From contig CM038471.1 of the NCBI GenBank assembly GCA_021464415.1, forward strand, positions 35,933,234 through 35,997,233: 64,000 nucleotides of DNA, written 5' to 3'. Both the position numbers and the translations under genes were made by a program. This DNA comes from Lonicera japonica (Eukaryota > Streptophyta > Magnoliopsida > Dipsacales > Caprifoliaceae). Of this stretch, positions 6,021 to 51,117 are shown piece after piece. The notes beneath the pieces are model-generated. The model was not told the DNA's origin. It was given only the letters and a program-made list of their open reading frames with translations, and ran no database searches. Every line of letters begins with the position of its first letter. Position 1 is the first letter of the stretch.

Positions 6021-6414
6021 TGCATGTTTGTGAACATTCTGCTTCTAACGTAATCAATTGTGATGAATGAAAATTGTTCCGTTTTACAAAAGCAGTTCAA
6101 TCTCCAATATTTGAGCTGAGGGAGAAAAGAAACAGTTCAATCATGAGAGATACTGCATACAATAACCTAATCACTAATATAAGCAAATCTGTAGATTGCT
6201 GCCTTTGTATCCTTTCTGTCGTTCCTTCCGCCTGTTTATATAACAAAAATATTTTAAGATTAGATTCAAAATGGGGTAAAGGGAAACATTGCATCGCTAT
6301 ACATAGAATTGCCATAATTACTGAAGGTCACCTACACTTTTTCCTTTTGAATTTATGCTTGTTTATGTAACTGTGTGAAATCAAATAGTAGGGTAAAAGG
6401 CACAAACCCATGAA

Positions 6415-9400
6415 TCAACGATGTTCATTGAAATATTTTGGGAACCAAAAATCTTCGTCAGGAATTTCCTCAAACATGTAGTAGAGGAAGTATGTTCCTG
6501 TGCTTAATTTGAGTGCTGGAAAATTGTGATGTGACTCCTCGATAGTTGAGGTACTTCCATTACCTTCTTCTTGGTCACGGTGGTACACAATTTTAAAACC
6601 ACACTCCTTCACCACAAATTCATTAGAATAAAACGTAATAGTAATTTCCTCTCCAACCTCCGAATGATTCCCAAACCTCCATCGGCTCATCCATTCAAAA
6701 TCTTTATTACTATATATATGGACGCACAAAGTAGTTTGGGTGGTATATCCATGTGAGTTCCTTTGTCTTATTCTCAATTTTAACATAAATCCAACGTACG
6801 GGTCTAATGAATTTCGTTTGCTCAGACATACACCACACATTCAAACAATGGATTCTATGAGTAGGAAGTGAAGGCACAGCAAAACATATCGACGAACCCT
6901 CAATTTTTTCACCTGAAAAGATTGGAACTGCCCCACTCGGAAAATATATGCTAAATATACCATACTCGAACGTACCCTGTGCCACATGAATCCTAATGTT
7001 ATTTACTTATCGGAATATAGCTGAAGGTAAGATATTGTTTACAAACATATATATACAGAGAGGGTACCTGGATAAGATGTTTCTTTGCATAGTAAATCAT
7101 ATTGGTTATTCCCGTGAACTCAAATTCTGTTGTGGTTTCTTTCTTGAAACAATTTTCTAGTTCTACCGATTTATGGCAACCATGTAACAAGAGGTAAGCA
7201 CTCGCATCTAGAGTTGTTACTTTTTCAGAGAACTGCAATTTCTTGCATCTATTCGACCTGACTTAATCGATAAACCATTAAGGTTAAGCGATTGGAGCAT
7301 GTGACTATTATATAAATAGAGGGAGTATAGCCCACTAAGGCTTCTGATGAAATTCGGTATCCTACGAAATGGATTTCTGCATAAGTTCAATTATTGTAAT
7401 GAGGGTAGGTTACCGAAAGTCACAGGGAATGAATCATCAGATTGATTGAACCCAGACGTACTTAATTCTCTTAAAGAGCATGGTAAAGAAGCCCATAAAG
7501 TCTCAGGACCTTTCCTTGGTGTTGGCACCATTAACCAAACTATCAGTTGCCACCATTTGACCTCCCCACTACTATTGTTTAATGGGTTTTTGGCAATCCC
7601 ATCAGCGTTAAGCACTTCTAATGACTTCATATTTTTCATCTCACTTGGCAACTACCAATATTGCAACTTGATATTACTAGAGTCTTTAAAGATCCTAGCT
7701 TGCCAATGTTTCTTGGGAGTTTCCTTAATGTTTTACAATCTTTTAAATCAAGTAAATCAAGCATCTTAAGGTTTCCGATGGATTCACAAACCTCAACCAA
7801 ACTTACACAACCTTTAAGGATTAATCTCTCAAGGTTGTGGAGGCCCAAGAAGTTGGGGGTTCTTAATTTCAAGCCATTCCGAATAACTCAAATCAAGGAT
7901 CTTTAATGATTCAAGAAACTATACGCAAAAAAGGGAAATTAATTCTAATATACTAAGCCATCACCAAACTAAGGAAAAAAGAAAAAAAATGAATATCATA
8001 TCGGGGTTTCCTTCCAAACTTGTTTTAATCTCTATGACGAAAGTCAAAAGCAACCAAGTTCTTCGATTTAAATTCAACGGGAATAGATTTTAAAGGAAAT
8101 CCATGCCAAGACAACCATACTAAACTTTTAGGGAAATTCTTATAGTTTCCCTTAACTTGTGCATAATTGAGCTTAAGTAGCTTTAGCTTTCTCATACTTT
8201 TAAATGCATCGGCTCTCAAGCATATGCCATTTGAACTTCTTAAAGTTGTGCTTGCTGATTCTCCAGAGACAAAGCTTGAACAATGTCGCTTTAGTGAGCT
8301 GGCATGCTTTGACAATATTGATTTGTCACGAAATTCCTGATAACGGCACTTTTTTTCATGATTAGCAACTTCCTTCGACATATGCATGTCAAGGGTAAGG
8401 CCTTCAACTGTTTTTGTACAATATTAAAAGAAGAATATGAAAAACACGTAAAAAAAATTGGATCTATTATTGGAATACACGTAAACTAAGAAACACACAT
8501 GAGATTATTTTTACCTTTTCATTTTTTAATACGCTAATGGCATCTCCATTATGCCATAGTCTACTACGCTCTCCTACCTCCTGTGATTCTTGGCATATAA
8601 TTTCTCGTCCCTTGTCTTGAATTAGTCTATGCATTCCCAACAATCCATGACTATCCCTTTCCAAAGGACATCGATCAATTAGATTTTGAATTCCAATTTT
8701 TGCGTGAAGGTCACATTTCTCTAGTATTTTGATTGCATAATGCTTATTTATTCCAACAACGAAGCAAGTAACGCCGAGGAATAATCTTTTTTCGTAGTCA
8801 TCTTGTAAAGAGTCATAACTGATTTTAAGTTTCTTAAGGATTTGACTGTGAGGTATTACTTCCAGTTTTGTTAATTGGCTGACCTATTCATCTTCACTTT
8901 TCCCGAACAAAAAAGAACCTACAACTTTAAGAGCTAATGGAAGCCTTTCACAAATTTGCATCGACCTTTTTGTGTGCTCTATATAACTTCTGAGAGGAAA
9001 ATTTTCTCCAAAGGCATGCAAATTGGAGAGCTTAATTGATTCACCTTGACCCAATTTTTTAACCCTAAAAATCTGATTAGGTTTTAATAGCCTATCATAT
9101 CTAGTAGTTAAGATAATTTTACTTCTTGGGAAAAGAGAATCTTGCATTCCAAGTAGGGCATATATTTGATCCTCTTCTTCCACATCATCAAGAACGAGGA
9201 ACACCTTCTTTTGACATATAACATTTATGATCTTGCTGAGCCCTTCATCAACGTTATTAATTTTTCCCAGTTTCCTTCTTGAAATATTTGATTGAAGTTG
9301 TCTTTGTAAGCAAAGTAAACCGTTAGGTTGTTCTAACACTTCCCTGATGTTTCCTAGAAAGCTACTACCCTCAAAGCTATCAAAGTTTTGATTATAGACA

Positions 9401-9605
9401 TATTTTGCGATGGTTGTCTTTCCAATGCTACCCATCCCACAGATAGCATGTACTCTATCATCACTTGAACCTTCTTGTAGCCACATATTTATATTTTTAA
9501 AATCGAGAATCTATCCTAATTATGTACAGAGCAACGTCCAAGGCTGTGCAACTCAATTTGTCTCCAATCACTTTTACAATTTTTTTGATAAACTTGGATT
9601 CATGC
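6415..9605 (-). pseudogene. TNL-A: NB-ARC-LRR-C-JID resistance gene pseudogene, no TIR
   Basis: A TNL-class immune receptor relic. Exon 2 (about 9605-8515) encodes NB-ARC with P-loop GMGSIGKTT, kinase-2 VFLVLDDVEE, RNBS-B KIILTTRYDRLL, LPLAL and MHR in place of MHD. Exon 3 (about 8425-8027) has the start of the LRRs (SLVWLSWHGFPLKSIP). Exon 4 (7918-7068) carries further LRRs. Exon 5 (6976-6415) is the C-terminal post-LRR (C-JID-like) domain ending DEDFWFPKYFNEHR. Lesions: frameshift near 9503; TGG to TAG at 8881-8883; exon 3 acceptor AATAG changed to AATAT and its donor GGTATG changed to GATATG; frameshifts near 7870 and 7660; stop near 7388; frameshift near 6720. No TIR exon lies upstream. 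Comparison with TNL-C and TNL-B defines each lesion. Certainly a pseudogene. Confidence 0.9.
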
Positions 9606-10671: not shown

Positions 10672-11939
10672 GGAAGATCTTATCAATGAGAATGGCACGT
10701 GGAATGAAAACAAGCTATGGGATATAATGCCTAATGAGTTTCATGAAGAAGTCCTTAGTACCCCTCTTCCCCTGGAAGAAGGAAAAATGGACAAACCTTG
10801 CTAGTTGGGCAAAGGGTCAGGTAGATTTACAATAAAATCGTGTTATCTCCATATTCTTACTGATATAAATCCTCCTGATCCAAACGAGAGTGACTGGAAT
10901 TGTATTTGGAAAGTAAGAGTGCCTTTCAAAATTGTTAACTTCATTTGGATGTTAAGACATGATAAGGTCCTATCTGGGGAAAATTGCGTGGCTAGAGGAA
11001 TCTCAAATGACCCCAAATGCAAGTACTGTGGCATGAATGAGAATAGTATTCACATATTTAAAGATTGTAGTAAGGCGGCAGCAATGTGGAATACTCTTGG
11101 ACAACAAGATCCTACTGCTCCGAGGAACTCACATATTAGAAGCTGGCTGAATGTTAATCTCAAAAATGAGAATGACTACCGGGGAAGTCCTCTACCCTGG
11201 AATATCCTATTTGCTTCTACCATCTGGTGTATCTGGTTGCATAGAAATTATTTCATATTTCGCAATATAGAAATGGTTGCATAGCTTCAATATGGCTAAA
11301 CAAACTTTTGAAGCTTTTCAAAGCAAGCTGCGTAATGAGGGTACCAAGAATGAGAAACTGATAAATTGGTGTTTTCCAAGTGCAGGTTTAATCAAAATCA
11401 ATACGGATGGGAGCAAGCCCCAAAACTCATGCTATACAAGCTATGGAGGACTGGCTAAAACTGACGAGGGGCGCTGGATTGAGGGATTCTGCGGACGAGT
11501 GGGTGCCACAGTTCTTGGAGCTGAGCTATAGGGCATGAGACAAGGGCTCATGCTAGCAAAAGAGAGAGGCTGGGAAGGAGTGGAAGTGGAAAGTGATTCT
11601 AAAATTGGTATGGATATCATCAACAGTAAAGAGAGTGTGGAAAATCACCCAGAGCGGAATCTCATCAAAGATTGTAGAAGCCTGAAAGGACAAGTGAAAG
11701 CAAGGATCTGGCATATTCTCAGGGAGGCAAATAGATGTGCTGATGGTAAGGCAAGAATTAGAGCAACACAGCGAGAAAAGCATGTCAGGGTCCTAATAAT
11801 ACCTCCGGACGAAGTGGTGGAGTCTTATGGCAGACCATGTAGGGGTTGCATACCCCAGAGGATATAAGTTGTTTCTTTCTGTGTTTTTTCTGGTTTGTTT
11901 GCTGTTGTTTCTTCCTTTGCACAAAAACAACAAAAAAAA
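10672..11939 (+). mobile_element. 5'-truncated L1-like LINE (zf-RVT and RNase H)
   Basis: The 3' part of a plant L1-clade non-LTR retrotransposon. Residues start LEDLINENGTWN, then GKGSGRFTIKSCY, a zinc-binding RT domain with CKYCGMNENSIHIFKDC (about 10805-11284), then an RNase H-like domain with INTDGS, GAEL, VESDSK and EANRCAD, carrying the expected acidic residues (about 11370-11760). The frame is broken by the change of frame near 11280 and by a TAG at 11529-11531 where the family has Trp. A short 3' UTR ends CAAAAACAACAAAAAAAAT. Endonuclease and RT are absent, as in a 5'-truncated insertion. Block B has the uninterrupted target (57405-57425), so the LINE arrived after the duplication. 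No exact target duplication was found. Confidence 0.9.
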
Positions 11940-12480: not shown

Positions 12481-13014
12481 CAAAACAAGTAACAATTCCC
12501 TAAAACACTAACCCTCCTTGTCATCTTGGTTGTAGCTCCGCAAGTGGGGACATAGAAGTCAAGGGTTTGAGAGTTGGTACCAACAACAACAATTCCTTGT
12601 AACAGATTACTCGTAAGAACCCCATTCAAAAAATTATAGCTTCCCAATATAGTTACCCTTGATGTCTTCCACTCATTCAATCTTCCGCCAACATCATATC
12701 AGCTTCCGTATTAGCTTCCGCCATCCTATCAATATAAGAAAATATTAAAATAAAAAAACCAAAAAATTTTGCATCAATGTACATATAAGAATTAATGTAA
12801 TTACTGAATGGGATCACCAAACTTAACTGTATAAGCTGATGATTCTACCTAAACTTGGCAAAGCAAGACACAAGATGATAAAATGACATGAGTCGACATA
12901 AAATTATAAGTTAATGGGTAAAACTTTAATAGTTTCAGGTTATATTGATACATGCTAACACGATAAAATAACAAGTTAGGTCAATTAATATTTGTTAACA
13001 CAATAATACCTATT
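12481..13014. other. Spacer, no recognised gene
   Basis: Contains only the unrecognised minus-strand frame at 12480-12680, which lacks a known domain and could belong to the truncated CACTA element. From 12780 on it is AT-rich. The last five bases, AATAA at 13015-13019, are the target duplication of the following LTR element. Confidence 0.5.
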
Positions 13015-13019
13015 AATAA

Positions 13020-13887
13020 TGATGGGGTAAATATTAATTTACCATTGGCCTACAAAAAAAAAAAAAAAAAATTTACTATTGGCTTACAAAGGTAATTTTC
13101 AACATTTTTTACCTTCGGTAAAATTCCAATTTTACCCCTGGTAAAATCTCGTTTTTACCCCCGGTAAAATCTCATTTTTACCTCCTCACCTACCACACCT
13201 ACCACATCTCACCTACCTCACCTACCTCCACCAAAGATTAACTTATGCCATTCATTTTTATAAAATTTACGATTTTTGCCATTCTCCATTTACCTATAAA
13301 TACCCCCCACCATTCATTCATTCAACGCACAACAAAAACATCTCTTCTTTCTCTCTTAAGATCCATCTATCTCTTCCAAGAGATATAAAGCCATTGGCAA
13401 TACAAATACAAGCCAATTCGGGAAGAAATAGAAGAGTCATATACTCTCTCTTTTCATACCCCCAGAAATAAAAGGGTCTTATACTCTCTATTTTCATACC
13501 CCAAAAAATAGAAGGGTCTTATACTCTCTATTTTCATACTCCAAAAAATACCAACAACCCATATACACTCTTTCGCCTACACAGTTTATTATTTATTCTG
13601 TTGAAATATTTGTAATCCTAATTCTATACTTATAAATAGAATTAAGGAAATTATAGAGAGGGAGAAGTTGGTAGCTTGTATTATCTTCCAAATTGGTCGC
13701 CTTTGAGCTAATACAACACAAGCACACACAAAAGGAGGACGTACCACTGGAATAGCATAAGCGCTACCGGGGGAACCTACCTTAAAAAAAAAGTCATGTG
13801 TTCATTATTGCGCCGCATTTATTTTTTATTCACCGATATTCGCTTATTGATTGGTTAATTATCTATTTCTAGATTTTGACACCATCA
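13020..13887 (+). repeat. 5' LTR of the LARD-like element
   Basis: Begins TGATGGGGTAAATATTAATT and ends TTTTGACACCATCA. A likely TATA box, TATAAATA, is at 13295-13302, with CT-rich and GA-rich leader sequence after it. The matching copy is at 17055-17920. Confidence 0.93.
13295..13302 (+). promoter_or_regulatory. Putative LTR TATA box
   Basis: TATAAATA within CCATTTACCTATAAATACCC in the 5' LTR, followed within about 40 bases by a CATTCATTCA stretch. Position and sequence suit the RNA polymerase II promoter of the LTR element. The same box is in the 3' LTR. Confidence 0.55.
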
Positions 13888-13904
13888 GTTGGCGCCGTCT
13901 GTGG
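13888..13904 (+). other. Primer-binding region
   Basis: GTTGGCGCCGTCTGTGG lies directly after the 5' LTR, the place where a tRNA primes minus-strand DNA synthesis. The 30.6-kb gypsy element has the closely similar GTTTGGCGCCCTCTGTGG at the same place. The tRNA was not identified. Confidence 0.6.
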
Positions 13905-13972
13905 AAATAATAAGCTCTCTAAAGCTCTCGTTCTTTAGAAATTACAAGTGAATTTTCGGTGAAAAACTCAAA

Positions 13973-14600
13973 ATCCCGCGGGTCTACGTGGCTCAATATT
14001 CTCGGGGGCATAACTTCGTGCTCGGAATTCCAAATCATGCGATTATGGAGTCCATTTTGGAGAAAATTTCAAGAGCTACAACTTTTCAGTTTAAGCTTTT
14101 TTCAAATTCGTTCATCTCGGGATTCAAAACTTCGATTCAAACTTTCTGGAACAAAATTTCGCGGGTCTATAGTGATTCAATATTCTCGGGGGCATAACTT
14201 CTTTCTCGGAACTCCAAATCATGCGATTCTTGAGTCCATGTTGAAGACAATTTCAAGATCTAAAACTTTTCAGTTCAAGCCATTTTCAAATTCTGCCATC
14301 TCAGAGTTCAAAACTTCGATACAAACTTTCTGAAACGAAATCCCGCGGGCCTATGGTGACTCAATATTATCAGGAGCATAACTTTGTGCTCAAAACTCCA
14401 AATCATGCGATTTTGGAGTCCATTTTGAAGAAAATTTCAAGATCTACAACTTTCCAGTTCAATCCGTTTTCAAATTTGGCCATCTCAGGGTCCAAAACCG
14501 GGATACAAAGGTGCTGCGATAAAAAATGCAAAAATCCGGCAGGCTTATGCTGGCTCAATATTTACGAGCGCATAATCATTCAAAAATTCGGTTACCCAAG
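13973..14600. repeat. Tandem repeat set 1 of the LARD-like element (~183 bp units)
   Basis: Three units start near 13973, 14156 and 14338 with a partial fourth near 14531. Each begins with a variant of TCCCGCGGGTCTA, continues to TCAATATTCTCGGGGGCATAA, then CCAAATCATGCGAT and GAGTCCAT. Overlapping open frames of 69 to 124 codons (13959-14333, 13988-14197, 14353-14607) repeat the same words (e.g. GHNF, PNHAI), but no known domain is visible and the frames are probably a by-product of the repeat. Confidence 0.75.
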
Positions 14601-14949
14601 GGGATAAAATCCAAAAAAGAGATAAGTTATTTTTTGATAACTCATATATGATTTTTTATCTTTGTTTTAATATATCTAAAGTTGTATCATTTTCTTACGA
14701 TCAATAATTTTTATTGTAGAAAAAATTGATGAGCTTCCAAAAGATTACTTCCTGAATGTAATTTTTATCAAGTTCATCTGACAAATCACAAGAAATAAAT
14801 TGAAGAAATTTTCAGCGGATATTAAACTTTCACAAAGCCGAATGCAATTTTGAAGTCTATCAGACAACAGCAGGACCACCTCAACCCAAAGAGACCTGGC
14901 TGAGAATGATTATCTACTGCTGCACCACTGGTCAGAGACCAAGATTTTG

Positions 14950-15270
14950 ACGTTCCCTGGTAATATATGAGAAAATTTGTCAAACTTTGCTTAAGTCAGA
15001 AGGGGGCATGGCTCTACTCAAAACTTAGCAAAAAAGAACAAATTTTCTTTTTAAAAAATCCTGGTAATAAATGAGAAAATTGTCAGAATTTACATAAGTT
15101 AGAAGGGAGCAAGACTCTACTCAAAACTTAGCAAAAAGAACAAATTTTCCTTTTAGGAAACTAAGGACTTAAATGAGAAAATTGTCAGAATTTGCCTAAG
15201 TCAGAAGTGGGCATGACTCTACTCAAGACTTAGCCAAATAAAACAATTTTTCCTTTTAAGAAATCAAGGA
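14950..15270. repeat. Tandem repeat set 2 of the LARD-like element (~103 bp units)
   Basis: Three units near 14956, 15060 and 15162, each with AATGAGAAAATTGTCAGAAT or a variant followed by TAAGTCAGAAG.GGGCATGACTCTACTCAAAACTTAGC. Non-coding. Confidence 0.75.
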
Positions 15271-15360
15271 CTTCGGAAAAATTGCTATCAACATATAAGG
15301 GCCACAAGTGGAACATCTCCGGAACATTTTTACAAAACCCTCACTAGGGATACACATTAT

Positions 15361-16187
15361 CTAGTCACTCAAAAAAGGCTGAAGAATCTGAAGATCATCA
15401 GCATCAAAATTTAAAATAGTACTTAAATCAGAAGAAGAAGAATCAAAAAAATCATGGCGGATATTCCCCGAAACTGTCCAATCAGGGCCCGTTGTTTCAG
15501 CAAAATCTGCAACAAAATCATCTAGTGAAGATTGCAATAAAAAACCTTCCGAGACAGCCTGGTAAACGAAGTCCAAGGTAGCCTGGTTATAGGACGGATT
15601 CTGAAATGACGGCAAATTCACTTCAGTCAGAGAAGCCCCATTTTCTATAAGATTCGTGGTAGTCGAAAGAATATTCTGTACACCCTCTTCCGACATAAGG
15701 AGCCTCAAAAAACCTCCGGGAATAGGTTCCGAAAGATTCACGGCAGTCGGAATAATATTTGGCACGTTATTTCCTGCCGACGAATGGAACCTCGAAGAAC
15801 CTCCAAGAGGAGCAAAGGAGCATAACGGGTTAACACAGGAAGACCACCTCCTAATCGAGCCTCAAATGCCGTCACCCGTGCTTGTAACTCTTTCACCTTC
15901 TGTTCAAAAGAAGCAAGGAGAGCAGTACAGCCTCTAGCGAGATTCTCAATCCTCGCCGTGGCTTCAAGAAGATACGAACTAAGAGCCTCGAGAAGTCGAT
16001 CTTCGGGGACACGTTGCAAAAAAGATGCAACATTCCTCACCCCGAAAATAGTGAAGATTGTGTGATAGTCCTCACGATCAATCACATTTGGAAAAATTCT
16101 AGCATAATCACAAGCTAGAGGATATCTCTTGTGGCTATGAGCACAAGCCACACATGGACGACCTGAAAAAAATGGAGTGTTTGACAT
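15361..16187 (-). pseudogene. LOB-domain (LBD-like) reading frame inside the LARD-like element, antisense
   Basis: Two overlapping minus-strand frames, 16187-15738 (ATG at 16187) and 15765-15361, join into an LBD-like protein of about 275 residues if a frame change near 15760-15800 is allowed. Residues 12-26 read CVACAHSHKRYPLAC, matching the CX2CX6CX3C zinc-finger-like motif of plant LBD transcription factors except that the third Cys is Tyr22. It is followed by DYARIFP, a GAS-like block (FGVRNVASFLQRVP then LLEALSSYLLEATAR) and a coiled coil (ASFEQKVKELQARVTAFEAR). The acidic, Ser-rich C-terminal part (DDFVADFAET, FDSSSSDLS) looks like an LBD activation tail. It is antisense to the LTRs. 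Few disabling changes for its length; it is either a captured host gene or an element-specific antisense ORF. DNA binding is doubtful given the lost Cys. Confidence 0.8.
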
Positions 16188-16239
16188 TATTTTTGTTTAC
16201 TTTTGTAAGAAAAACTTATTACAAAAGAGAAAAATGGCG

Positions 16240-16515
16240 TTGGAAGAAAGGGATGGTGATGGAAGAAATTGGTTGGGTCTCGAGGGAGAGGAAGACGAAG
16301 AAGCAGAGTGAGAGGAAGATGAAGAGTGAGAGGAAGATGAGGAGTGAGAGGGAGATGAAGAGAGAGAGGAGCCTTCGACAGGGAGGATTTCAAAAAAAAA
16401 AAAAGGGGCCGAAAAACGGCCGAAAGGGGCCGACAAAAGAAAAAGAAAAGAAAAGAAAGGTGCAAAAAAAAAAAGAAAAGAAAAGAAGGGCGAAAAAAAA
16501 AAGAAAAAAAAATAT
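16240..16515. repeat. Purine-rich low-complexity tract
   Basis: GA-rich on the plus strand (GAGAGGAAGATGAAGAGTGAGAG units, then AAAAGAAAAG). The Lys/Arg/Glu-rich and Ser/Pro-rich frames over it are artefacts. It lies directly upstream of the antisense LBD-like ATG, where it reads as a CT-rich tract, a common feature of plant 5' leaders. Confidence 0.7.
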
Positions 16516-16559
16516 ATATATGTGTATATGAAATAAAGAGTTGAAAAAAGGCCCGAGTA

Positions 16560-16930
16560 GAATCAAATTATTTATGATCAAAAGTATAGCGAGCTTTACA
16601 TATTAATGTTCCAAGCTCTACGACTTGCATCTAATGTCTAACGAGTTCTACACATTGATGTTTCGAGCTCAACGACTAGCATCCGAGATCTAGCATCATT
16701 GGACTACGACTCGAGATCAACGTCTAGCCAGCCTTACACAATGATGTTCTGAAGCTCTAAAAGCTCTACACATTGATGTTTTGAGCTCAACGACTAGCAT
16801 CCGAGATCTAACGTCTTTGAACTAAGACTCGAGATCAACGTCTAGCCAGCCTTACACAATGATGTTCTAAAACTCTAAAACTAATGATCAAAGTCTAGCT
16901 AGCTTTACACATTAATGTTCCAAGCTCCAC
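16560..16930. repeat. Tandem repeat set 3 of the LARD-like element (~119 bp units)
   Basis: Units near 16643 and 16762 each run from CTACACATTGATGTTT through GAGCTCAACGACTAGCATCC to GATCAACGTCTAGCCAGCC and TTACACAATGATGTTCT. Degenerate partial units flank them. Non-coding. Confidence 0.75.
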
Positions 16931-17040
16931 AAACTTACGGTCAAGGATTCAGGCCTAAGACATCTCAAGCATCAGAGCTACTACTAGCTCCCGGATTGAA
17001 GGATATCCTCACCAATCAGCTCATCCGAGCTAAATGATAA

Positions 17041-17054
17041 GGATAGGGGGCAAT
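17041..17054 (+). other. Polypurine tract of the LARD-like element
   Basis: GGATAGGGGGCAAT immediately precedes the TGATGG start of the 3' LTR, the expected site of plus-strand priming. Confidence 0.6.
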
Positions 17055-17920
17055 TGATGGGGTAAATATTAATTTACCATTGGCCTACAAAAATAAAAAA
17101 TAATTTTACTATTGGCTTACAAAGGTAATTTTCAACATTTTTTACCTTCGGTAAAATTCCAATTTTACCCCTGATAAAATCTCGTTTTTACCCCCGGTAA
17201 AATCTCATTTTTACCTCCTCACCTACCACATCTACCACATCTCACCTACCTCACCTACCTCCACCAAAGATTAACTTATGCCATTCATTTTTATCAAATT
17301 TACGATTTTTGCCATTCTCCATTTACCTATAAATACCCCCCACCATTCATTCATTCAACGCACAACAAAAACATCTCTTCTTTCTCTCTTAAGATCCATC
17401 TATCTCTTCCAAGAGATATAAAGCCATTGGCAATACAAATACAAGCCAATTCGGGAAGAAATAGAAGAGTCATATACTCTCTCTTTTCATACCCCCAGAA
17501 ATAAAAGGGTCTTATACTCTCTATTTTCATACCCCAAAAAAAGAAGGGTCTTATACTCTCTATTTTCATACTCCAAAAAATACCAACAATCCATATACAC
17601 TCTTTCTCCTACACAGTTTATTATTTATTCTGTTGAAATATTCGTAATCCTAATTATATACTTATAAATAGAATTAAGGAAATTATAGAGAGGGAGAAGT
17701 TGGTAGCTTGTATTATCTTCCAAATTGGTCGCCTTTGAGCTAATACAACACAAGCACACACAAAAGGAGGACGTACCACTAAAATAGCATAAGCGCTACC
17801 GGGGGAACCTACCTTAAAAAAAAAAGTTATGTGTTCATTATTGCGCCGCATTTATTTTTTATTCACCGATATTCGCTTATTGATTGGTTAATTATCTATT
17901 TCTAGATTTTGACACCATCA
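17055..17920 (+). repeat. 3' LTR of the LARD-like element
   Basis: Collinear with the 5' LTR, differing by scattered substitutions and by the length of an A-rich run. Ends GACACCATCA and is followed by the target duplication AATAA. Confidence 0.93.
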
Positions 17921-17938
17921 AATAATATATATGGCATA

Positions 17939-17966
17939 TTATTATTATTATTATTATTATTATTAC
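17939..17966. repeat. (ATT)n microsatellite
   Basis: About nine ATT units directly downstream of the LTR element insertion site. Confidence 0.9.
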
Positions 17967-19127
17967 ATTATGCATGTATTCACATACATATGTTCATTTT
18001 AATGTCGGTGTGTGTATACGTGTATAATTTTATAAAAGGTGTGTCTAGCTTTTAATATATGCATATGTGTGTTCGTATTTGACTTGAAACAATTCGTTTC
18101 ATTTAATTAGTGGGTAATAATGGGCTAAGTTGGGTTTGAATATAATATTTTTACCCTATTAAAAAGTCACTCATTTAACCCAAACTAATAGCACCCAAAA
18201 CACGATAAACATGAATACAACTTGAGCCGACCCCTTGGCCATGCTTAATTTTACCCATAATCTTTAGGTGGTAATAAATAAAATTTAGATTTTAGAGTGT
18301 TAATTAAAATATAATTTCATCATCTAAATAATCTTTCCTTCCCTTTTTTTTTTGAAAAATTTAATGCTTATCTTTGTATCTGGGAAATTAATAAAATATA
18401 ATTTCATCTTCTAAATAATCTTTCTTTCTTTTTTTTTTTCCTTTTTTAAAAAAACAAAATTTAATGCTTATCTCTATAACTGCAAAATTAAAAGAAGGGT
18501 AAAAGGGGTAAACCGCATTACGTAGTTCGATTTAATCTTCTCGGGAACCAAAAATCTTCGTTGGGATTTTTCCTGAAGTGTCGCTGGACAAAGCACCAAT
18601 TTGTAGTAGAATTGTGATGGTCATCCTCCAAGGTTGAGGCACTTCCATTCGCTGCTTCTGCGTCACGATAGACAATTTTAAAGCCGTCCTTCACCACATA
18701 TTCATCCTTAATATCAAACGTAACACTACTTTCATGTGCAGCCTCCAACTGTTTTGCAAACCTCCATCTCCATCTGCTCAACCATCCCACATTTTCATTG
18801 TTTGGAAAGTAGTTAGGGTTCCTTATCAAGGCCTGATCGTGTGTCTTATTCCCGAGGCGATCAGTACAATCGATGTATGTCTTCTCATCCGTACTACACC
18901 ACACATTCAAGCATTGGGTTCTATGATGAGGAGGAGGCCAGTCCACATTATAATTGACAAATTGGTTCGATTGATCCTGAAAGATTTTAGCTGGAGATAT
19001 TGGGAGTGTAGTCTCCTCAAGATATAAGTTAAATTTACAGTCGAATGTTTCCTGGGCCACATGAATCAGAATGTTAATTATTGATCCCACACCAGCATGT
19101 AACATATTATTTAGAAGCAAATGGTTT

Positions 19128-21413: not shown

Positions 21414-24400
21414 ATCTTACATGTAAAACATATATGACTAATATTTATAATATATTATTTAATTCACGCTGGACTTGGATTTTGGGTTCCTTTCAAGAAA
21501 ACCATTAAACCATTTAGTTAGATTGTCTAAAAGTGAAACATATGCTATATTCAGAAAAAGATTTATAGAAAAATCAAGGTTGATTGTGGAAAAGATTAAA
21601 CTTTCTAAGGTGAGTAATTTTTATTTGTTTTAATTTATCTTTTTTCAAGATTAAGAAGTTATCTTCCTTTATTTTTTCCCTTTGTTCGTAAGTTCAACCT
21701 CAACGAATTGTCTTAGTTTTATGCTTTACTCAACGAATTGTCTTAGTCTTATGCTTTAAAAGAGAGATTTTTTCATGCGCAATAAAATTTATATTATTTT
21801 GTGACTCCTACGTTGGAATAGAAAACATATATAATTGGTAGAAACCAAAATCCAGTATTTTACGTAGTACAAATATAGGTCTTAAAAAATAACTAAACAA
21901 ATTAAAGTGATAATGAACTATGATCAGAAATTATGAGTCACTCCCTCATGCGAGTCCATGACCGGTTTGATATATTTTGTATGTGTGAAACTCCTTAATT
22001 TTACATTTTTTCAAAAAGAGGGACAGTTGTTTTTTTTTTTTTTTTTTTTTTAGTAAATCCCCTATGCCCTAGCAAGGGCAAAAGAGGGACAGTTCTTAGT
22101 CCCATTCAATTCGATAAGTTTTATAACCTTTTTTCCATTTTATAGAATTAGTTTTTTGTATCTAAACATTTTGTTTGCTTTTAAATTCATAGATCTTTGC
22201 CAATGTTTTCTTTCTAGCAGCTATCATCATAACTATTAAGTTCTCTTCACATATTAATTTGAGGGCAATTGCTACTTGAGTTTAGAACTTTTGGGCATAT
22301 ATGATAATAAATGATAATGGCTTTTGAAACTTTAATTCAATATGAATTTCTTTTGTTTTTGTTCACCTACTTAAATGGAAATTTATTTTAAATATAACTT
22401 ATTGTATAAAGGTTTGATTAGCCGGTGGATTTAGGGGTGCGTTGGAAAATAAGGAAAGATGAAAAATATATGCTAAGATTAATTTAAATAAATATAAGGA
22501 AATAAGAGTAATAACAATTTTTCCAGTAGGTAGTATAAGGAAGAAATTTATTTTTTTAGCAGCAAAAATTCCCAAAAGATTTCAAAAATAACTTTTGTTG
22601 GATAACACTATTAATTAAAAATAATGTATATATAAAGAGAAAGGGGTACCTGCATATCCTCATTCCTCGTGCTTTCTTTCTTGAAATAGTCTTCTTTTCC
22701 AACCACTTTATAGCAACCAGCTACCCAGAGGTCGACCCTCTCATTTAGAGACATTATTTTTTGTTGTGATCTGCAACTTGTCACGTCTATGCAACCTGAT
22801 TTCATCATTAAACCATTAAGATCAAGTGATTGGAGCCTATGACATTCAAACATATCGAGAGATTTTAGGAGTCTACAAAATTGATTCATACTCAAGTCCA
22901 AGTCAGATAATGAGGGTAGGTTACCGAAATTCTCGGGGAATGAATTATCAGATAGATTGCTATTGGACATACTTAAGCTTTTCAAAGAGTATGGTAAACA
23001 AGCCCAGAAAGTCTCTGGACCTTTTCTTGGTGTTGGCACTACTGACCAAACAATTGGTTGCCACCACTTCACATCCTCTCTGCTTGTCTGTAATTGGTTT
23101 AAGTCAATCCCATCAGCCTTAATCACTTCTAAGGACTTCATATTTTTCATCTCACTTGGGAACTCAACAATATTGCAACCTGAGATTACTAATATCCTCA
23201 AAGATACTAGCTTAGCAATGTTTTTTGGAAGCTTCCTTAGAGTTTTGCAATCTTGTAGATCCAGTAAATCAAGCATCTCAACGAACTCGATGGATTCACA
23301 AACCTCAACTAAACTCATACAACCCTTAAGGATCAATCTTTCAAGGTTGGGGAGGCCTAAGAAGTTGGGGGTTCTTACCAGCCATTCAGAAAAACTCAAA
23401 TCAAGGATCTTCAATGATTCAAGAAACTGTAAGGGAAAATAAAAAGGACTATTTAATTCAATATCCACAAGTTATAATCATAAATTGAGGAAAGAAGAAA
23501 GGTACGTAATTGAATGTCATACCGGAGTTTTCTTCCAAAGATGTTTTAATCTACTATGACGCAAGTCGAGAGCAACCAAGTTCTCTAATGTAAATTCAGA
23601 AGGGATATATTTTAGTGGAAACCCGTGCCAAGACAGCCACACTAAACTTTTAGGGAAATTCTCATAGCTTCCCGTAAGTTGTACATAACTAAGTTTGAGT
23701 AGCCTTAGTTTTGTCATGCTTTTAAATGCATCGGTTCTCAAAGATACCTCATGTAGACTTGTTAGAGTTGTGCTTACTGATTGTCCAGAGACAAAGCCTA
23801 AAAGACGCCGCTTAAGTAGCTCGCATGCTTTAACAAAATTGATTTGCCATGAAATTCCTCGTACCGTCGCTTTTTTGCTGTATTACCAACTTCCTCAACC
23901 ATACTCTTGTCAAGGATAAGGCCTTCAACTGTGTTGGTACCCTATTAAAAGAACAATATGAACAACATGACAAAAATAAGGATAAATTATTGGAATACAT
24001 GCAAATTAACTAAGAAACATGTATACATGAGATGATTTTTACCGTTTCATTTTGCAATACCCTAAAAGCATCCCCATGTTGCCATAGTCTACTACGCTCT
24101 CCTGCCTCGTGTGATTCTTTGCGTACAATTTCTCGTCCCATGTCTTGAATTAATCTATGCATCCTCAGGACTTTATGACTGTCCTTTTCTAAAAGACAAC
24201 GATCAATGAGATTTTGAATTCCAATTTTTGCGTGAAGGTAACATTTCTCTAGTATTATGATTGCGTAATCCTTATTAGTTCCATTGAAGAAGCAAGCAAC
24301 ATGGAGGAATAATCTTCTGTCGTAATCATCTTGTAAAGTGTCATAACTGATTTTAAGTTTCTTGAGGATTTGATTGTGAGGTATTTCTTCTAGTTTTGCT

Positions 24401-26232
24401 AATTCGCTGACCCATTCATCTTCATTTTTTCCGGACAAAGAAGACCCTATGACCATAAGAGCTAACGGAAGTCCTTCACAAATTTGCACTGCCCTTTCCG
24501 TGTGCTCTGTATAACGTTTGAGAGGAAACTCTTCTCCAAAAGCATGCAAACTGAAGAGCTTAATTGAGTCATCTTGACCCCAATTCTCAACCCTAAAAAT
24601 ATGATTAGGTTTTAACAACCTCTCATGCCTAGTAATTATAATGACTTTACTTCCTGGAAAAATCCAATCTCGCATTGCAAGTAGTGCATACATTTGATCC
24701 ATTTGCTCCACATCATCAAGAATGAGAAGCACCTTTTTTTTACGGATGACATTTCTAATCTTGGCTAGCCCTTCATTGACATTATGTATTTTTCTTTGTT
24801 GCCTTCCCGAAATATCAAGTAGAAGTTGTGTTTGTAAGCCAAGTAAACCATTAGGTTGTTTTGACACTTCGTTGATGTTTTCTAAAAAGCTACTACCGTC
24901 AAAACTACCAAAGTTTTGATTATAGACATATTTTGCGATGGTCGTCTTTCCAATGCCTCCCATCCCACAAATAGCACGCATTTCAACATCAGTTGACCCG
25001 TCTTGCAACCACTAATTTATATCTTTGACTCGAGAATCTATTCCAATTAAAAAAGGTGCAACGTCCAAGGCTATGCGACTCAATTTGTCTTCAATGACTT
25101 TTATAATTTTGTGGATAAACTTAGATTCATGCCTACAAATCAATCGAATTGGATAAGAATATAAATAATTACATACAGAGACTTTAAATAACATGAAAAA
25201 TCATATATAGAAACAACGAGAATGACAACAATAATATTATAAATGTATTATCCCTAATTAAGAGTTTGATTTCTTTTTAGTTCTATTATGTTGATTAGAG
25301 AGACATTTAGTATTTGTTTTAAATTTGTAAAAGTCTAACATGACGGAATTTTTGGGGAAGGCCAACAATCAGAACTTTGACTTTAAAAGACTTCCTCCGT
25401 GGTTCAAAAATTCTCCTTTTGAGTTCTCGGCCCCATTCCGTTTCCACTCTCGCTAGTTTATAAGATAAGAACTAGTAATCCATCATTAGTGCCTATGATT
25501 GTGATTGACTTGAAAAAAATTCAAAATCTTCCCCAGTAATTAGTAATGAATATAATAATAATCCAACCATGATGATGGCATTGGCCATAGTGATACCTTA
25601 GCGATAATATACACGGGTATATTTAGTTTTAATTTTCAGATCAGATTCCTTAATTAACCTAAAAAATTATAACAATGGATCAGATTCCTTAGGGTTTGCT
25701 TAGCTATGCTAATCGCATAATCACAAATAACCAAAATAGCTACAAAAATTCATTTGCCCATTGTTGTTCTTTCTTTATTAGAATTAGTGTATTAGCTATC
25801 ATATTAATTGGATAGTTGACTTTACTTAAATATGTTTTAGGTATACCTTTGAGATATATAAAAATAATATTCGGCCATTTATCAATTCAAATTAAGGATC
25901 AACGCGGGAAGATTATAATATTTGTTAAGACTAAATGGCTTATTTAGAGGCTTCATTCTAAAAAGAAGCAAAAGAGAGATTCAAAATGTAAACTTCACGT
26001 TTAGATTCCAGAGTTTAATTTAGGATATTCAATTTGGATAAAAATATGGATAACCTTCAAGGTTTTCTCTTATAAGTTAATAAAACAAGGGGATTGTTAA
26101 TTTAATATGCGGAATGCTAAATAGAAATTTTGCCATTTATTAGGGAATTCGGATCTAGTCTTCTAGGGAAAAAATTGGGCAGCAACAAATATTGGAATTA
26201 TATATGAAAAGAAAAATGAGGAGCTTACGTAC

Positions 26233-26753
26233 CCGTCAGCTTGGTTTCTCAAGTCCAATCCAATCAAATTAGCAACTTCTTTGAGTGCTGATCTCCACCC
26301 ATTTATCTTTTCCCTCAATTTTCTTTTACCCTCAGAATCCGTTCCTTTTTCAAATTGCTCTTCGTATCTAGCAAATGCTTCTGCTGTCCTCCCTGTTTGC
26401 TTCCGAATTTCGGATGGATCTATGTGATAGAACACCGGTAAAACTATATGGTTAGAGTTCCTCCTTCGTTTGAGGATCATCACCAATTCATCAAGACACC
26501 ACGTGGAAGACGCGTAGTTCTCCGATATGACAATGATCGAACACTTTGACTGAGGGATCGCTTTTTCTAATTCTGACTTGAGATATTCGCCCTTCTCCAT
26601 CTCATCATCGTCTCTAAAGGTGCGAAATCCTTGTTGGTCTAAAGCTGTATATAGATGATCTGTAAAAGTTTTTCGAGTGTCTTCACCTCTGAAGCTCAGA
26701 AACACATCGTAACAAGTGGAAGAAGAGGCTTCATCGGATCTTACAACGGCCAT
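26233..26753 (-). CDS. Intact TIR-domain exon of TNL-C
   Basis: Exon 1 starts at the ATG at 26751-26753 (MAVVRSDEASSST) and ends at the donor CGG|GTACGTAAG. The frame extends further upstream without an ATG, so this is the best start. TIR motifs are intact: YDVFLSFRGEDTRKTF (residues 15-30), TFRDDDEMEKGEYL (45-58), and SENYASSTWCLDEL (77-90) with Glu89 at the position of the conserved catalytic glutamate of plant TIR NADases, then VLPVFYHIDPSEIRKQTG. If intron 1 is retained the frame adds about 22 residues and stops, giving a TIR-only protein. With the downstream TAG, a spliced product would also be little more than a TIR. Activity is inferred from conserved residues only. Confidence 0.85.
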
Positions 26754-27785
26754 TATATTATTTGGAGAAAGATAGTTTTGGGCAATGAAATGAAGGAGCA
26801 CCCAAGCGTAAGTTAAAAAGCAATTATATTGGAGTCTGGACTCTGGAGAGGATGTTAGATATTGGTTGTATATGAGGAGGATGAATTGGGATAGTCAGAG
26901 TAAATGGAATCTCCCAGGAAAAGAGAAAGTGGAATACTTTGGAAAATAGGCGAAGAAAAGTAGGGGAAACTTGCAAACCGGCCACTTCCGGGTAATTTCC
27001 TAAAAGTTCATTTATACAAATATGCTTTGCTAGTCTAATGTAATTATTATTTTTAGCCTCTTCCTTAAATATTGACATTACCTTACGGCCATCAAATTTA
27101 TTAAATTACATAAGATAACATGTACCCGGACACTATTCGATAAACTATTTGATAATATTTTTGTATTTTGTATCATTAAGATATTGGGTAATCCGTTTCT
27201 ACCCATTAAGAATATAAATTTTAGAAAAAAATATATTAAATTTAAAAAAAATAAAAATTGTACTAGATAAGATGGATAAATAACTTAAAATTACTAAAAA
27301 AAAACAAAAATTAAGGTTAAATATTTAACAAGATTTTACGTTTATTTTAATCATTTAAAAAGTTTTACTGTGCTAATAGAACACCCGAATTCATTAAGGA
27401 TAAGCCTGTAAGCAATTCGTTATTATTTCATGTCTACCGGGTGAACTCGATAACCACTTTAATTCGTTTACGGTCAACCCATTCACTTCTCATTTCGTAT
27501 GGATTCACGTCATGTTATTATCTAACGTGTGATTTTACCAAGTCCAGTAAAGATCAATTAAGAGCATGGGAGAAATTAGTGCACTTTACAAACACAAAGA
27601 GTACAAGAAGTTGTGTTAAGTAACTAGATTTCTCCCAAATTAGTTTAAGTTTCAGTTCATTCTTATAGCCCTAAATTGGTGAATTCACACTACAAGTTTC
27701 TTATAATCCATGGACAGAAGTTGAGAAGTTGACGAAACTCAAATTTTCAATGTAAAATTACTATTTTAGCTTGTAAAAACTAACA
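26754..27785. other. Upstream region of TNL-C and spacer
   Basis: Directly upstream of the TIR ATG this should contain the promoter of TNL-C. No confident TATA box or W-box cluster was picked out by eye. From 27080 it is plain AT-rich DNA with no recognised gene. Confidence 0.4.
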
Positions 27786-35139: not shown

Positions 35140-36299
35140 TGTAATACCCCGTAATTTAATTAGCGTAAATTAGACCTGAATTAATATCTATTAAGTGAAA
35201 TTTTTGAAGTGTTTAAAAATATTGATTAATTATGGACCAAGTTATAAAATTTCGTATGGACTAAAATATAAAGTTGTAAAGGTTCAGGGTTAAAATAATA
35301 AAGTTATGAAACTTCAGGGTAAAATGTTGTAATTAAGCAAAAGTTAGATTTTTTTTTAAAAAGTGACAGACTTTGTCACCTTTCCTTTTATCTTCATCTT
35401 CTTCATTCTTCTTCCACTGCCGAAAGAAAAAAAAAGAGAGAGAGAAAGTCAAAATTAGTTTTAAGGTTACTCCTTATAAATTAGTCGTCAAAACTTCGTT
35501 GAATCAAGTCGAACCTTAAGGAAAAGTTGTTCTATCCGTCGAGGGCTACGCAGAGGTATAAGAATTTTAGAGTTTTGCTGGTCAGGGCTCGGGTTATCAT
35601 TTCAAACTTCATTCTTTGATGATAAATATTTTGAGGTAGGGGTTAATTATGATTTCTTGTGTTTTAAATTATTAAAGAATAATAAATATTACATGAGTAT
35701 ATGATTGTGCATATGTAAGTAGCTATATTGATTAATGATTTATGATTTATAATAACCAAGTACATGTGTATAAATAATATTTTGCAAGTTTGAATTTAAA
35801 ATATGGAGTAGTACACATTTGTTCATATTTTGGCCATTGTTTTGATTAAATCTGGACAATTTGGTATAAGAGCATAGGTTTACGCGATTACTTGGGTTGT
35901 GGGACAAAATTTTTGATATATTGTAATAAATTATTGTCTTATTAAAATATATTGGATTGTCATGACGTTCCTTTTCTTGTTTTCGTATAGAATGACGACT
36001 TCACCAAATCACAATGCCACCCACAGGAGTTCCACCTTTGGGGAGTCAGTAGATGCAATCCGTGCCATGGCCCGAGGAGTTTATATACTTTGGTTATTGG
36101 TATGGCTTGAATTATATGTACTTGCTACATGCTGGAATGTATAATATGTTGATACTCTATGCAGTGTGATACTTGCTATATATGTTGTTGTTGACTTATT
36201 TATTTCTGTATACCTATCTTAGTTTTACTAAGACAGGTTAGTAACGCTCCAGGCCTTAATTACAGACGTTATCCTATACGCTAAGGCGGGAGTGTTCCA

Positions 36300-36690
36300 T
36301 CATCAAGAATTTCCAAATCTTCCCATTGAACAATATGGGATGGATCGTAAACATACCGTCGAAGTTGTATGAGACCAATGGCTGCTGGAAGTTGTATGAA
36401 AAAACTGAGAAACTCATCCAGAAAGGACAGTTCCGTCAATATGTGGACAAGAAGAAGGAATCTCCCCCCAAAGCTAAGGGAAAAAAACTCGATAATGAGA
36501 TCTTCATTATTGAGGGGGGCTCGTCCTACTCTGGAAACAACAACAACATGTCTAGAAAGGCCAACGTCAGATATGCCAAGTCCACGAGCTCGGAGGCAGA
36601 GTGCTTCAGTTTCAGGCTAGCCAAAATGGTGAAGTATGATGTCAAAGAGATCACCTTCACATATGAGGACTTGAATGGGAGTAGAGTTCC
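36300..36690 (+). pseudogene. Tat-type gypsy gag C-terminal part
   Basis: The frame from 36326 contains TNGCWKLYEKTEKLIQKGQF then RQYVDKKKE, matching the end of Tat-type gag ('.EC..LK..IE.LI..G.l..fv....'). It continues to ITFTYEDLNG, which leads into the protease after a frame change at about 36685. It is the continuation of the gag piece that ends at 32960, separated by the nested LTRs. Confidence 0.65.
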
Positions 36691-37235
36691 CACACGATGA
36701 TCCTTTGGTAGTAACAGCAATGGTGGACAATCACAATGTCCACATAATCCTTATAGACACTGGGGCTACCTCCAACCTCATGTACTACAACTCCTTCAAA
36801 GCCATGGGCCTCACCACCGAGCATCTGACCCCTTCGACAATCTTGTTGGTTAGTTTTTTTGGGGAAAAAACCAGGTCATTAGGGACTATTAAGCTCATGC
36901 TAACTCTGGGGATAGCCCCGAAGCAGATTATCACCATCGCCGAGTTCTTAATACTAGACAGTGCCCCCCACTACATTGCCATCATAGGCAGGGGTACTCT
37001 CACCAAAACCAGAGCTTCCATTTCAACTTGCAGTTTGACCATGAGGTTCCCAACCCCCCACGGAGTTGGGGAGGTTAGAGAATACCAAGTGAAGGCTCGA
37101 TACTGCCCATTTAGAACTCTAAAAGAGGTCAGAACCGCCGATGTGGACCTCGAAGCAGCGGCTGTTGGGGAATTAATAAGTGCGGAGGGGCCCAATAATT
37201 TAGAGAAGTGGGAGATTGATACTTTGGACCCTTAG
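36675..37235 (+). pseudogene. Tat-type gypsy aspartic protease fragment
   Basis: The frame reads EFPHDDPLVVTAMVDNHNVH and then ILIDTGATSNLMYYNSFKAM, with the DTGA catalytic motif of retroviral-type aspartic proteases, followed by GEKTRSLGTIKLMLTLG. The protease would cleave the gag-pol polyprotein. The domain is long and open (about 186 residues) but is out of frame with the preceding gag, and the RT that should follow is absent. The frame stops at 37235. Confidence 0.85.
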
Positions 37236-47197: not shown

Positions 47198-48800
47198 TCA
47201 AGTTGGTGCGAAGATATCCGTCATGCCCAACCTACTCACTTGAAATTCGAATGGTTGCCTTAACAGGCCCTTGGTCAAAATATCTGCAACTTGTTGATTA
47301 GATGGAACAAAGGGAGTACATATAATTCCACCTTCTAGTTTCTCTTTGATGAAGTGCCTATCAATCTCAACATGTTTTGTCCTATCATGTAAGACCGGAT
47401 TGTGGGCAATACTGATAACAGCTTTGTTATCGCAGTATAGCTTCATCGGGAGACTTATTGGCCTTTTGAGTTCCTCTAAGACCCTTTGTAGCCAAAGAAC
47501 TTCACATACTCCTTGAGCCATGGATCTAAACTCATCTTCTGCACTACTTCTAGCGACAACATTTTGCTTCTTGCTTCTCCATGTAACCAAGTTGCCCCAA
47601 AGAAACGTACAGTAGCCAGACGTGGACCGTCTATCAGTAACCGAGCCAGCCCAATCAACATCGGTATACACCTCTATCCCTCTTTTATCGTTCTTCCTGA
47701 AGAACAGACCCTTCCCTGGGGAGCCTTTGAGGTAACGAAGAATACGGTACACAGCCTCTAGATGCTCTTCACATGGTGACTGCATCAACTGACTAACCAT
47801 GCTCACAGCGAAAGCAATGTCAGGGCGCGTATGAGACAAGTAGATTAATTTCCCAACTAACCTTTAGTATCTCCCTGTTTCGACTGGAACACCATCTTTA
47901 ACATCTCCTAGCTTGGTACCCAGTTCTATAGGAGTATCCGATGGCTTACACCCACTCATCCCAGTTTCTGACAGCAGATCCAAAATATATTTCCGTTGTG
48001 ATACGACAATACCACTTTTTGACTGGGCCATCTCCATTCCAAGAAAGTATCGTAGGTCACCAAGATCCTTAATCTTAAATTCTCTAGCAAGATTTCGCTT
48101 CAGTCGATTCATTTCTTCAACATCATCCCCTGTCAAAATCATATTATCCACATAAATAATGAGAACAGAAAGTTCGTTTCTTGTGGACGTCTTTGTGAAG
48201 AGAGTATGATCAGACTGCCCTTGATTATATCCTTGGCCCTTGAGGAACTTCGTTAATCTTTCGAACCACGCCCTAGGGGATTGTTTAAGGCCATACAAAG
48301 ACCTCTTTAGCTTGCAGATTTTTGTCCCAAATTCCTCAGTAAAACCAGGTGGAGGTTCCATATAGACTTCCTCTTATAGGTTTTCATTCAAGAAGGCATT
48401 CTTCACATCTAACTGATTCAGAGGTCAGTCCAAGTTAGCTGCATCTGATAAGAGAACCCGAATTGTATTTAATTTTTCCACGAGAGAAAATGTTTCGGAG
48501 TAGTCGACTCCATACGTTTGAGTGAAGCCTTTAGCCACCAGACGAGCCTTGTACCGTTCCACTGACCCATGTGAGTTATACTTCACAGTAAATACCCATT
48601 TACACCCAACAACTGTCTTTTCTTTTGGAAGCTTTACTTTCTCCCAAGTAGCATTCTTCTCCAGCGTTCTTATCTCCTCATACACTGCTTCTCTCCACTC
48701 CGGAACATTTAGAGCATCCTGAACATTGTTAGGAATAACCACATTCGACACACGAGAGATAAATACAGAATAGGAGGGTGAGATATTTTTATATGACATA
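47198..48800 (-). pseudogene. Copia reverse transcriptase and RNase H
   Basis: Element reverse transcriptase copies RNA to DNA; RNase H degrades the template. The RT part starts [18 protein letters not shown], then [20 protein letters not shown], later RSLYGLKQSPRAWF and the active-site loop LIIYVDNMILTG, then FKIKDLGDLRYFLGMEM. The usual YVDD is YVDN, which should abolish metal binding. RNase H shows VYTDVDWAGSVTDRRSTSGY, then CDNKAVISIAHNPVLHDRTK and VADILTKGL. Frames 48799-48425, 48361-47864 and 47839-47198 are separated by stops near 48420, 48375 and 47862. Non-functional. Confidence 0.92.
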
Positions 48801-48889
48801 AAGTTCGAAATAGGATATTTGGGAGATTTCGTACACGCTCTGACTCCTTTTCTAAGAGCAATAGGGAGATCAAGTTGATCAGACTGAGT

Positions 48890-49690: not shown

Positions 49691-49697
49691 TTACAAG

Positions 49698-51112: not shown

Positions 51113-51117
51113 ACAAG

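Follow-up and report, generated by a model that had tools for sequence, protein, structure and literature searches.

A LOB-domain frame carried by LTR retrotransposons of several types in Lonicera japonica

The window element and its antisense frame

The 64,000-nucleotide window of Lonicera japonica contig CM038471.1 examined here (positions 35,933,234 to 35,997,233) contains a long terminal repeat (LTR) retrotransposon that carries, antisense to the element, a frame encoding a LOB domain like that of the LBD transcription factors of plants. The 5' LTR (TGATGGGG...ACCATCA; 13020-13887, +) and the 3' LTR (17055-17920, +) are 98.0% identical, with 13 substitutions over 865 columns (Kimura two-parameter distance, K2P, 0.015), which corresponds to an age of ~0.6 to 1.1 My under assumed substitution rates of 1.3e-8 and 7e-9. 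The element has the features of an LTR retrotransposon: the LTR pair, a target site duplication (TSD) AATAA at 13015-13019 and 17921-17925, a primer binding site (PBS) region, TTGGCGCCGTCTGTGG, at 13888-13906 (+) and a purine-rich tract just before the 3' LTR, the last two identified by eye. None of ten internal open reading frames (ORFs), a subset of the 36 listed for 12500-18500, gave a Pfam match above the curated cut-off, and six gag/pol pieces of the relatives described below found no match in the window element at E 1e-10. These results bear out the first-pass annotation of the locus as a complete element lacking gag and pol. Three distinct tandem-repeat arrays lie within the 3.2-kb internal region on the + strand, an arrangement resembling Retand elements: a 184-nt repeat in three copies (13988-14539), a ~102-nt repeat in three copies (14973-15256) and a 118-nt repeat in two copies upstream of the antisense gene (16644-16879).

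The antisense coding region is in two parts. Frame 1 (15738-16187, -; 149 amino acids, Met at 16187) comprises the LOB domain, with zinc-finger-like and GAS-like blocks, and a coiled coil, and frame 2 (15361-15861, -; 166 codons) comprises a linker and an acidic, Ser-rich C-terminal tail. Frame 1 matches the Pfam LOB family PF03195 over positions 1-96 of 99 (E 2.5e-15; 57.3 bits, cut-off 24.2), as had been proposed from the letters of the sequence alone, and by sequence it also matches the solved LOB chain of Ramosa2 (E 1.2e-10), to which it is ~27% identical. The predicted fold of frame 1 has a predicted local distance difference test score of at least 90 at 83 of 149 residues, and a fold comparison ranked both 5ly0 chains first with probability 1.00, yet with E 1.5e-3 and a root-mean-square deviation of 11.7. 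All ten relative proteins in one set match the LOB domain. The 166 amino acids of frame 2 have no Pfam match and correspond to the part that, in the long-form relatives described below, continues the LOB frame.

The earlier description of a two-part frame with an LBD-type domain, a GAS-like block, a coiled coil and an acidic tail holds. In the zinc-finger-like block of this copy the third Cys is Tyr. The resulting incomplete CX2CX6CX3C block counts against LBD membership of the window copy, which is the sole exception among 27 DNA copies (intact in 26); among the proteins P0001-P0082, which include many incomplete gene models, 41 of 82 have the block. Class I LBD proteins have a leucine-zipper-like motif Lx6Lx3Lx6L, from which both the F-x6-L-x3-V-x6-L of the window copy and the L-x6-L-x3-V-x6-L of most gypsy-type copies, each read by eye, depart. 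On its sequence the protein is best described as LBD-like, and we do not call it an LBD factor.

Distribution of the LOB module across retrotransposon backbones

A PF03195 profile search of the 886,079,548-base genome gave 1605 first-look candidates, of which 150 were scored, all of them exceeding the LOB cut-off. The list begins with 24 canonical LBD stretches (L001-L024), after which the score falls from 110 to 87 bits; the other 126 places are element-like, so that the window element belongs to a large family in its own genome. DNA was compared for 26 of these 126 lower-scoring places, spread over the list (6 at 3.3 kb and 20 at 10 kb), which together with the window make up the 27 DNA copies, a sample taken from places sorted by their LOB score. 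Every one of the 26 holds an element-type LOB, and in 23 LTR sequence or gag/pol lies beside it, the exceptions being L025 (a short locus), L039 and L050. Direct repeats of at least 231 bp surround the LOB frame in 15 of the 20 10-kb loci, and nine timed elements other than that of the window have LTR K2P values of 0.0007-0.041.

Among the 20 10-kb loci, five contain gypsy pol (L032, L033, L034, L038 and L049, with no gag piece matched in L049), nine contain copia gag and six contain neither. The most complete gypsy-type locus, L032, has an open 1894-codon frame encoding gag, protease, reverse transcriptase (RT), RNase H, a second RNase H and integrase, behind which the antisense LOB frame is the only frame of at least 120 codons. 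The order of its domains, with RVT_3 after RT_RNaseH and before Integrase_H2C2/rve, is that of Tat elements, and no chromodomain match was found in it at E 0.01. Directly after the 5' LTR, L031, L032, L033 and L038 have the same PBS motif, TTGGCGCCGTCTGTGG, as the window element, with which they also share their LTR ends; L031 has a build like that of the window element, with no pol and a TSD ATGGT (by eye). The window element thus appears to be kin to Tat-type members through the common PBS, LTR ends, repeats and LOB frame, its own pol not having been found, in agreement with the relation to the Tat lineage suggested at first. The idea that the frame marks a pol-less element does not hold, since relatives with open gag-pol carry LOB at the same place. 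In L034, a perfect 516-bp tandem duplication (6033-7062 of the oriented locus) repeats the LOB tail.

The nine copia-type loci consist of copia gag, a piece of the next domains and then the antisense LOB frame. L046 has a Retrotran_gag_2 match of 1.6e-26, L046-type gag matches in L045, and L045 has a TSD AGTTT and a tRNA-Met-type PBS, TGGTATCAGAG, by eye; the scanned frames of L046 and L035 showed neither RT nor integrase. For eight of the nine, LTR K2P ranges from 0.0007 (L046) to 0.041 (L041), several 3' LTRs being clipped by the locus end. Comparison of L046 with seven gypsy-type or related loci found the LOB frame and ~300 bp upstream of it in common, sometimes with short pieces further up. 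A third backbone is formed by two small elements, L042 and L047, whose direct repeats measure 289 and 247 bp (91% alike); they have the PBS TGGTATCAGAG and a purine tract, and LOB is in sense orientation in them; their TSD, by eye, is GAGTA in L042 and imperfect in L047. One LOB module is accordingly present in three LTR backbones, in sense in one of them. The other four 10-kb loci (L031, L036, L039 and L050) have neither gag type, and the LOB of L039 is of the copia type. The two small elements also hold a RING-H2 frame (L042 locus, 8466-9017, -; E 6e-13) and a class III peroxidase-like piece (L047 locus, 7892-8218, -; E 2.5e-10), respectively, and look as if LOB were the constant and other host-gene cargo the variable part.

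A candidate antisense core promoter, TATATATA, lies at 16490-16616 (-) in the window element, ~333 nt 5' of the LOB ATG, in a block that is partially conserved in relatives. Between -345 and -290 of the ATG, TATA[AT]A occurs in 23 of the 27 copies (Markov mean 1.4, maximum 6 in 200) and TATAAAA in 21 (Markov mean 0.4, maximum 4), although the 23 matches are not independent because the copies are related. This position is common to the gypsy and copia types.

Relatives in other sequences come largely from one congener. A protein search retained 12 of 56 candidates at E <=1e-3, every one from Lonicera macranthoides, and a profile search retained 71 of 7996 at E <=10, of which 66 were from L. macranthoides and five from short contigs. 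The largest L. macranthoides cluster (22 sequences; representative 275 aa) has LOB, linker and tail in a single frame. With a wider profile that included Ramosa2, element-type proteins came out on top, followed by LBD proteins of many plants (best 120 of 5510). Other element sequence is joined to the LOB stretch in some of these gene models: in P0007 of L. macranthoides the LOB stretch is fused to the antisense translation of the 184-nt repeats (95% over 38 aa), and short or weaker LTR or 3'-end pieces occur in P0010, P0012 (opposite strand), P0034 and P0071. Element copies can inflate the number of LBD genes counted in genomes of this kind. The short-contig sequences P0056, P0081, P0058, P0064 and P0070 (contigs of 737-2094 bases, source 'ena') are relatives of the element LOB, as is P0046 (source 'lgn'); they are perhaps transcripts or from other species, and P0056 and P0081 form a separate branch of the clade described below. 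In viral contigs, 164 pattern matches for LOB loci were obtained, none of which was confirmed.

Origin, subfamilies and codon constraint

The origin of the frame was examined with a tree of 63 rows and 97 columns, comprising 23 element-type LOB rows (14 of the 27 DNA copies and 9 proteins), 24 LBD stretches from this genome and, from other plants, 16 LBD proteins. All 23 element-type rows cluster in a single clade (100/100), whose stem is 1.6 changes per column long. This points to a single old capture of a host LBD gene and speaks against the recent capture that had been offered as one explanation. The nearest host LBD is hidden by the long stem, and the small number of columns limits the deeper branching; L010 came out nearest with a support of just 94/65 and is not claimed as such. 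The window copy pairs with P0013 (100/98). The tree places copia-type rows within the gypsy-type ones with weak support (87/53 and 82/81), so that a move of the LOB module from gypsy-type to copia-type elements is likely, not proven.

The copies fall into long and short forms. In a search with the window frame as query, 150 places were scored, all best-scoring and hence biased. The window and 56 other rows (57 of 150), 69-100% identical to the window, span the frame-broken end and have an open frame mostly of 152, 29 of them (window included) at >=82% identity, whereas most other rows end close to residue 118, with open frames of ~278 in many. As 57 of 150 rows run through the broken end, the break is a subfamily trait; it is also seen in L036 and P0001. 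Counted by eye, 19 of the 29 short-form rows at >=82% identity are free of stops, compared with 80 of 93 others (Fisher p 0.03). The tail frame is free of stops in 27 of 43 rows classed as short form (those whose match starts before the break), and both frames are so in 12 of the 30 places common to both searches. These counts are compatible with a recent or repeated break, or with joined translation.

Selection on the frame was assessed over 112 LOB codons in 26 of the 27 copies, leaving out L030, which is broken. The ratio of nonsynonymous to synonymous rates (omega) was 0.36-0.39, and fixing it at 1 cost 38 log-likelihood units, indicating that in this score-ranked sample other copies keep the frame under codon-level constraint, as had been suggested. 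Between subfamilies, the ratio of nonsynonymous to synonymous differences (pN/pS) was 0.46 in the LOB frame and 0.97, 1.36, 0.96, 0.56 and 1.00 in the other five frames. In the gypsy-type copies (n=5), the RT piece gave 0.08-0.23 compared with 0.36-0.61 for LOB; the near-identical pair L032/L033 gave no RT ratio and a LOB ratio of 0.00, the RT pieces of L038 and L049 have one stop each, and that of L049 spans 256 of 474 residues. Within the eleven non-copia copies the tail has a ratio of 0.66, and the linker between the LOB/coiled-coil part and the tail is loosely constrained. A chance open frame is ruled out by the Pfam LOB match, the Ramosa2 match and the rejection of omega 1.

Elsewhere in the window, frames of TIR-NBS-LRR genes (TIR, NB-ARC and LRR) occur at 22611-26894 (-) and 55856-56344 (-) and, by eye, at 8025-9510 (-), so that the LTR element seemingly lies between two TIR-NBS-LRR stretches; the L. 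macranthoides gene model P0012 joins an LRR-like stretch to the element LOB frame. A broken copia-type element at 47198-52998 (-) has a gag (Retrotran_gag_3/2 match at 51937-52998) and, by eye, pol-like pieces in several frames, with no Pfam match in 47198-47863. Frames at 36260-37235 (+) resemble the gypsy-type gag/protease of L049 by eye, with no Pfam match below 0.001 in 36675-37235, and a zf-RVT piece of an element resembling a long interspersed nuclear element lies at 10805-11284 (+; E 7e-17).

A proposed accessory gene, its alternatives and known systems

The reading that we favor, with a probability of about 0.48, sees the LOB frame as an antisense accessory gene belonging to a Tat-type Ty3/gypsy family; a host LBD gene would have been captured once, long ago, and its product would act in trans on the elements. 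The proposal draws on the LOB domain and its orientation, the spread over three backbones, the single clade, the codon constraint in a score-ranked sample and the common TATA position. Members with gag-pol have the LOB gene between pol and the 3' LTR, and the window element would be a gag/pol-less derivative that kept the gene and is presumably moved by relatives sharing its PBS and LTR ends. The gene would be transcribed from its own antisense promoter, with the TATA box ~300 nt upstream of the ATG, and together with its upstream region it would have passed to Ty1/copia-type elements, probably by recombination. Judging from LBD proteins and VANC, the LOB/coiled-coil part may dimerize and bind the elements' own DNA, which the acidic tail may activate or whose chromatin it may open, so that the protein could benefit its carriers in trans as a transcriptional activator or anti-silencing factor. 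If it works as VANC does, the three repeat arrays of the window element are possible target sites.

A number of results weigh against this proposal. The copies were chosen by LOB-score rank, which lowers nonsynonymous divergence (dN) in the LOB domain, and one of the other five frames likewise has a low ratio (0.56). The window lineage in particular is weakly constrained: the group of the window and L050 gave 0.66-0.75 against gypsy-type groups, the window alone gave 0.42-0.92 against single copies, window and L050 differ by dN 0.121 and dS (synonymous divergence) 0.290, and the window against all others shows changes at nearly equal proportions of codon positions 1, 2 and 3 (0.265, 0.258 and 0.297). 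The window copy is, moreover, a member of the frame-broken, more relaxed subfamily. Ratios for the tail are 1.21 within the copia type (0.91 for its C-terminal motif) and 0.96 between the copia type and the other eleven copies. Finally, the TATA motif is absent from 650 nt in L042, L047 and L049. LBD proteins bind GCGGCG, and autoregulation through this site in the LTR was rejected: it occurs in both window LTRs and in no relative's LTR seen.

Alternatively, the LBD gene may have been caught once and copied along as a passive passenger, its apparent constraint reflecting the choice of well-preserved copies and young master elements, an explanation that we consider less likely. The ranking of the sample by LOB score, tail ratios near 1, weak constraint in the window lineage, a broken frame in the window subfamily with stop-free frames in just 19 of its 29 close rows and a LOB constraint far weaker than that of RT in the same elements all fit a passenger. 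Such a passenger does not readily account for the strong rejection of omega 1, even in a score-ranked sample, for a LOB-frame ratio below those of the other five frames, for the retention of a single module in three backbones, in its own genome and in L. macranthoides, or for a promoter-like upstream region common to gypsy and copia types. That upstream region bears also on the improbable case in which the value lies in antisense RNA, through self-regulation or small interfering RNA, and the protein is incidental: the common TATA position would fit antisense transcription, and part of a review of antisense ORFs discusses transcripts of such frames (PMC7264820), but the constraint is at the amino-acid level and L042 and L047 carry the frame in sense.

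Selection at the level of the host would keep the frame if some copies were now functional host LBD-like genes, and many L. macranthoides copies are indeed annotated as protein-coding genes; the direct repeats flanking LOB in most 10-kb loci and the LTR divergence of the nine timed elements count against host use, which we consider improbable. It is also improbable that the short form has a role of its own, whether ribosomal frameshifting still links its two overlapping frames or the short product acts alone as an antagonist of the long one. The same break is shared by the 57 rows described above, and the tail frame in 27 of 43 short-form rows, as well as both frames in 12 of 30 places, are free of stops; against this, stops are commoner in close short-form rows (the 19 of 29 and 80 of 93 counted above), and all rows are best-scoring and so biased.

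That one module occurs in three retroelement backbones suggests selection on the gene and not only on the element. A possible though doubtful extension is that a captured transcription factor has become a selfish module with its own promoter, exchanged among Ty3/gypsy, Ty1/copia and small retroelements under element-level selection, with >100 copies driving their carriers and possibly disturbing the host LBD network. The role and origin of conserved antisense frames in plant Tat/Retand elements are described as an open question in parts of two papers (PMC7264820, PMC11963269); for the LOB frame, whose host ancestor is clear and whose fold and type of activity are known, both become directly testable.

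Antisense ORFs are already known in Tat/Retand elements, and it is LOB as an antisense accessory frame that appears to be new. The word LOB does not occur in the main texts of PMC7264820, PMC11963269, PMC6317226, PMC10508981 and PMC13317346, although Additional file 4 of PMC6317226 may contain a LOB entry, and the literature searched yielded no description of LOB as an accessory frame of retroelements. As portions of PMC11963269 describe them, Retand antisense frames mostly encode TRP28, with some Smc, polIII, topo2, TolA and others, and Vicient's table 1 lists no LOB; portions of PMC6317226 report plant mobile domain frames in Ogre and likeness to known domains in just 21.4% of extra ORFs, and a review states that these antisense proteins had not been described as clearly similar to any others (PMC7264820).

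In other respects the family resembles Retand/Tat elements (Grande gene23, RIRE2 and Retand), which, according to sections of PMC11963269 and PMC6317226, also have a second RNase H between RNase H and integrase, tandem repeats, an antisense ORF between pol and the 3' LTR and domain-lacking derivatives, and it differs from them in that the antisense product is a LOB-domain protein. With LBD/ASL factors this product shares LOB over 96 of 99 Pfam positions, the CX2CX6CX3C block in 26 of 27 copies and the coiled coil, and it differs from them in its ~27% identity to Ramosa2, its L/F-x6-L-x3-V-x6-L zipper, its different tail, its location in retrotransposons and the Cys lost in the window copy. Elements with host coding sequence are exemplified by the gene transducer Bs1 of maize (PMC7264820, in part), which the small elements L042 and L047 recall with their additional RING-H2 frame and peroxidase piece; unlike Bs1, one captured gene here lasts in several element types. 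An extra ORF close to the 3' end is likewise described for copia elements of the SIRE type in part of PMC6317226, where it is forward (eORF-3'F), whereas the LOB frame of the copia-type loci is antisense. If the proposed activity is correct, the nearest parallel in mode of action would be VANC of the VANDAL DNA transposons, which in the part of PMC5735166 concerned is an element-encoded DNA-binding protein favoring its own family, with targets that often form tandem repeats; VANC belongs to another transposon class, and the likeness would lie in the proposed mode only, with no shared sequence claimed.

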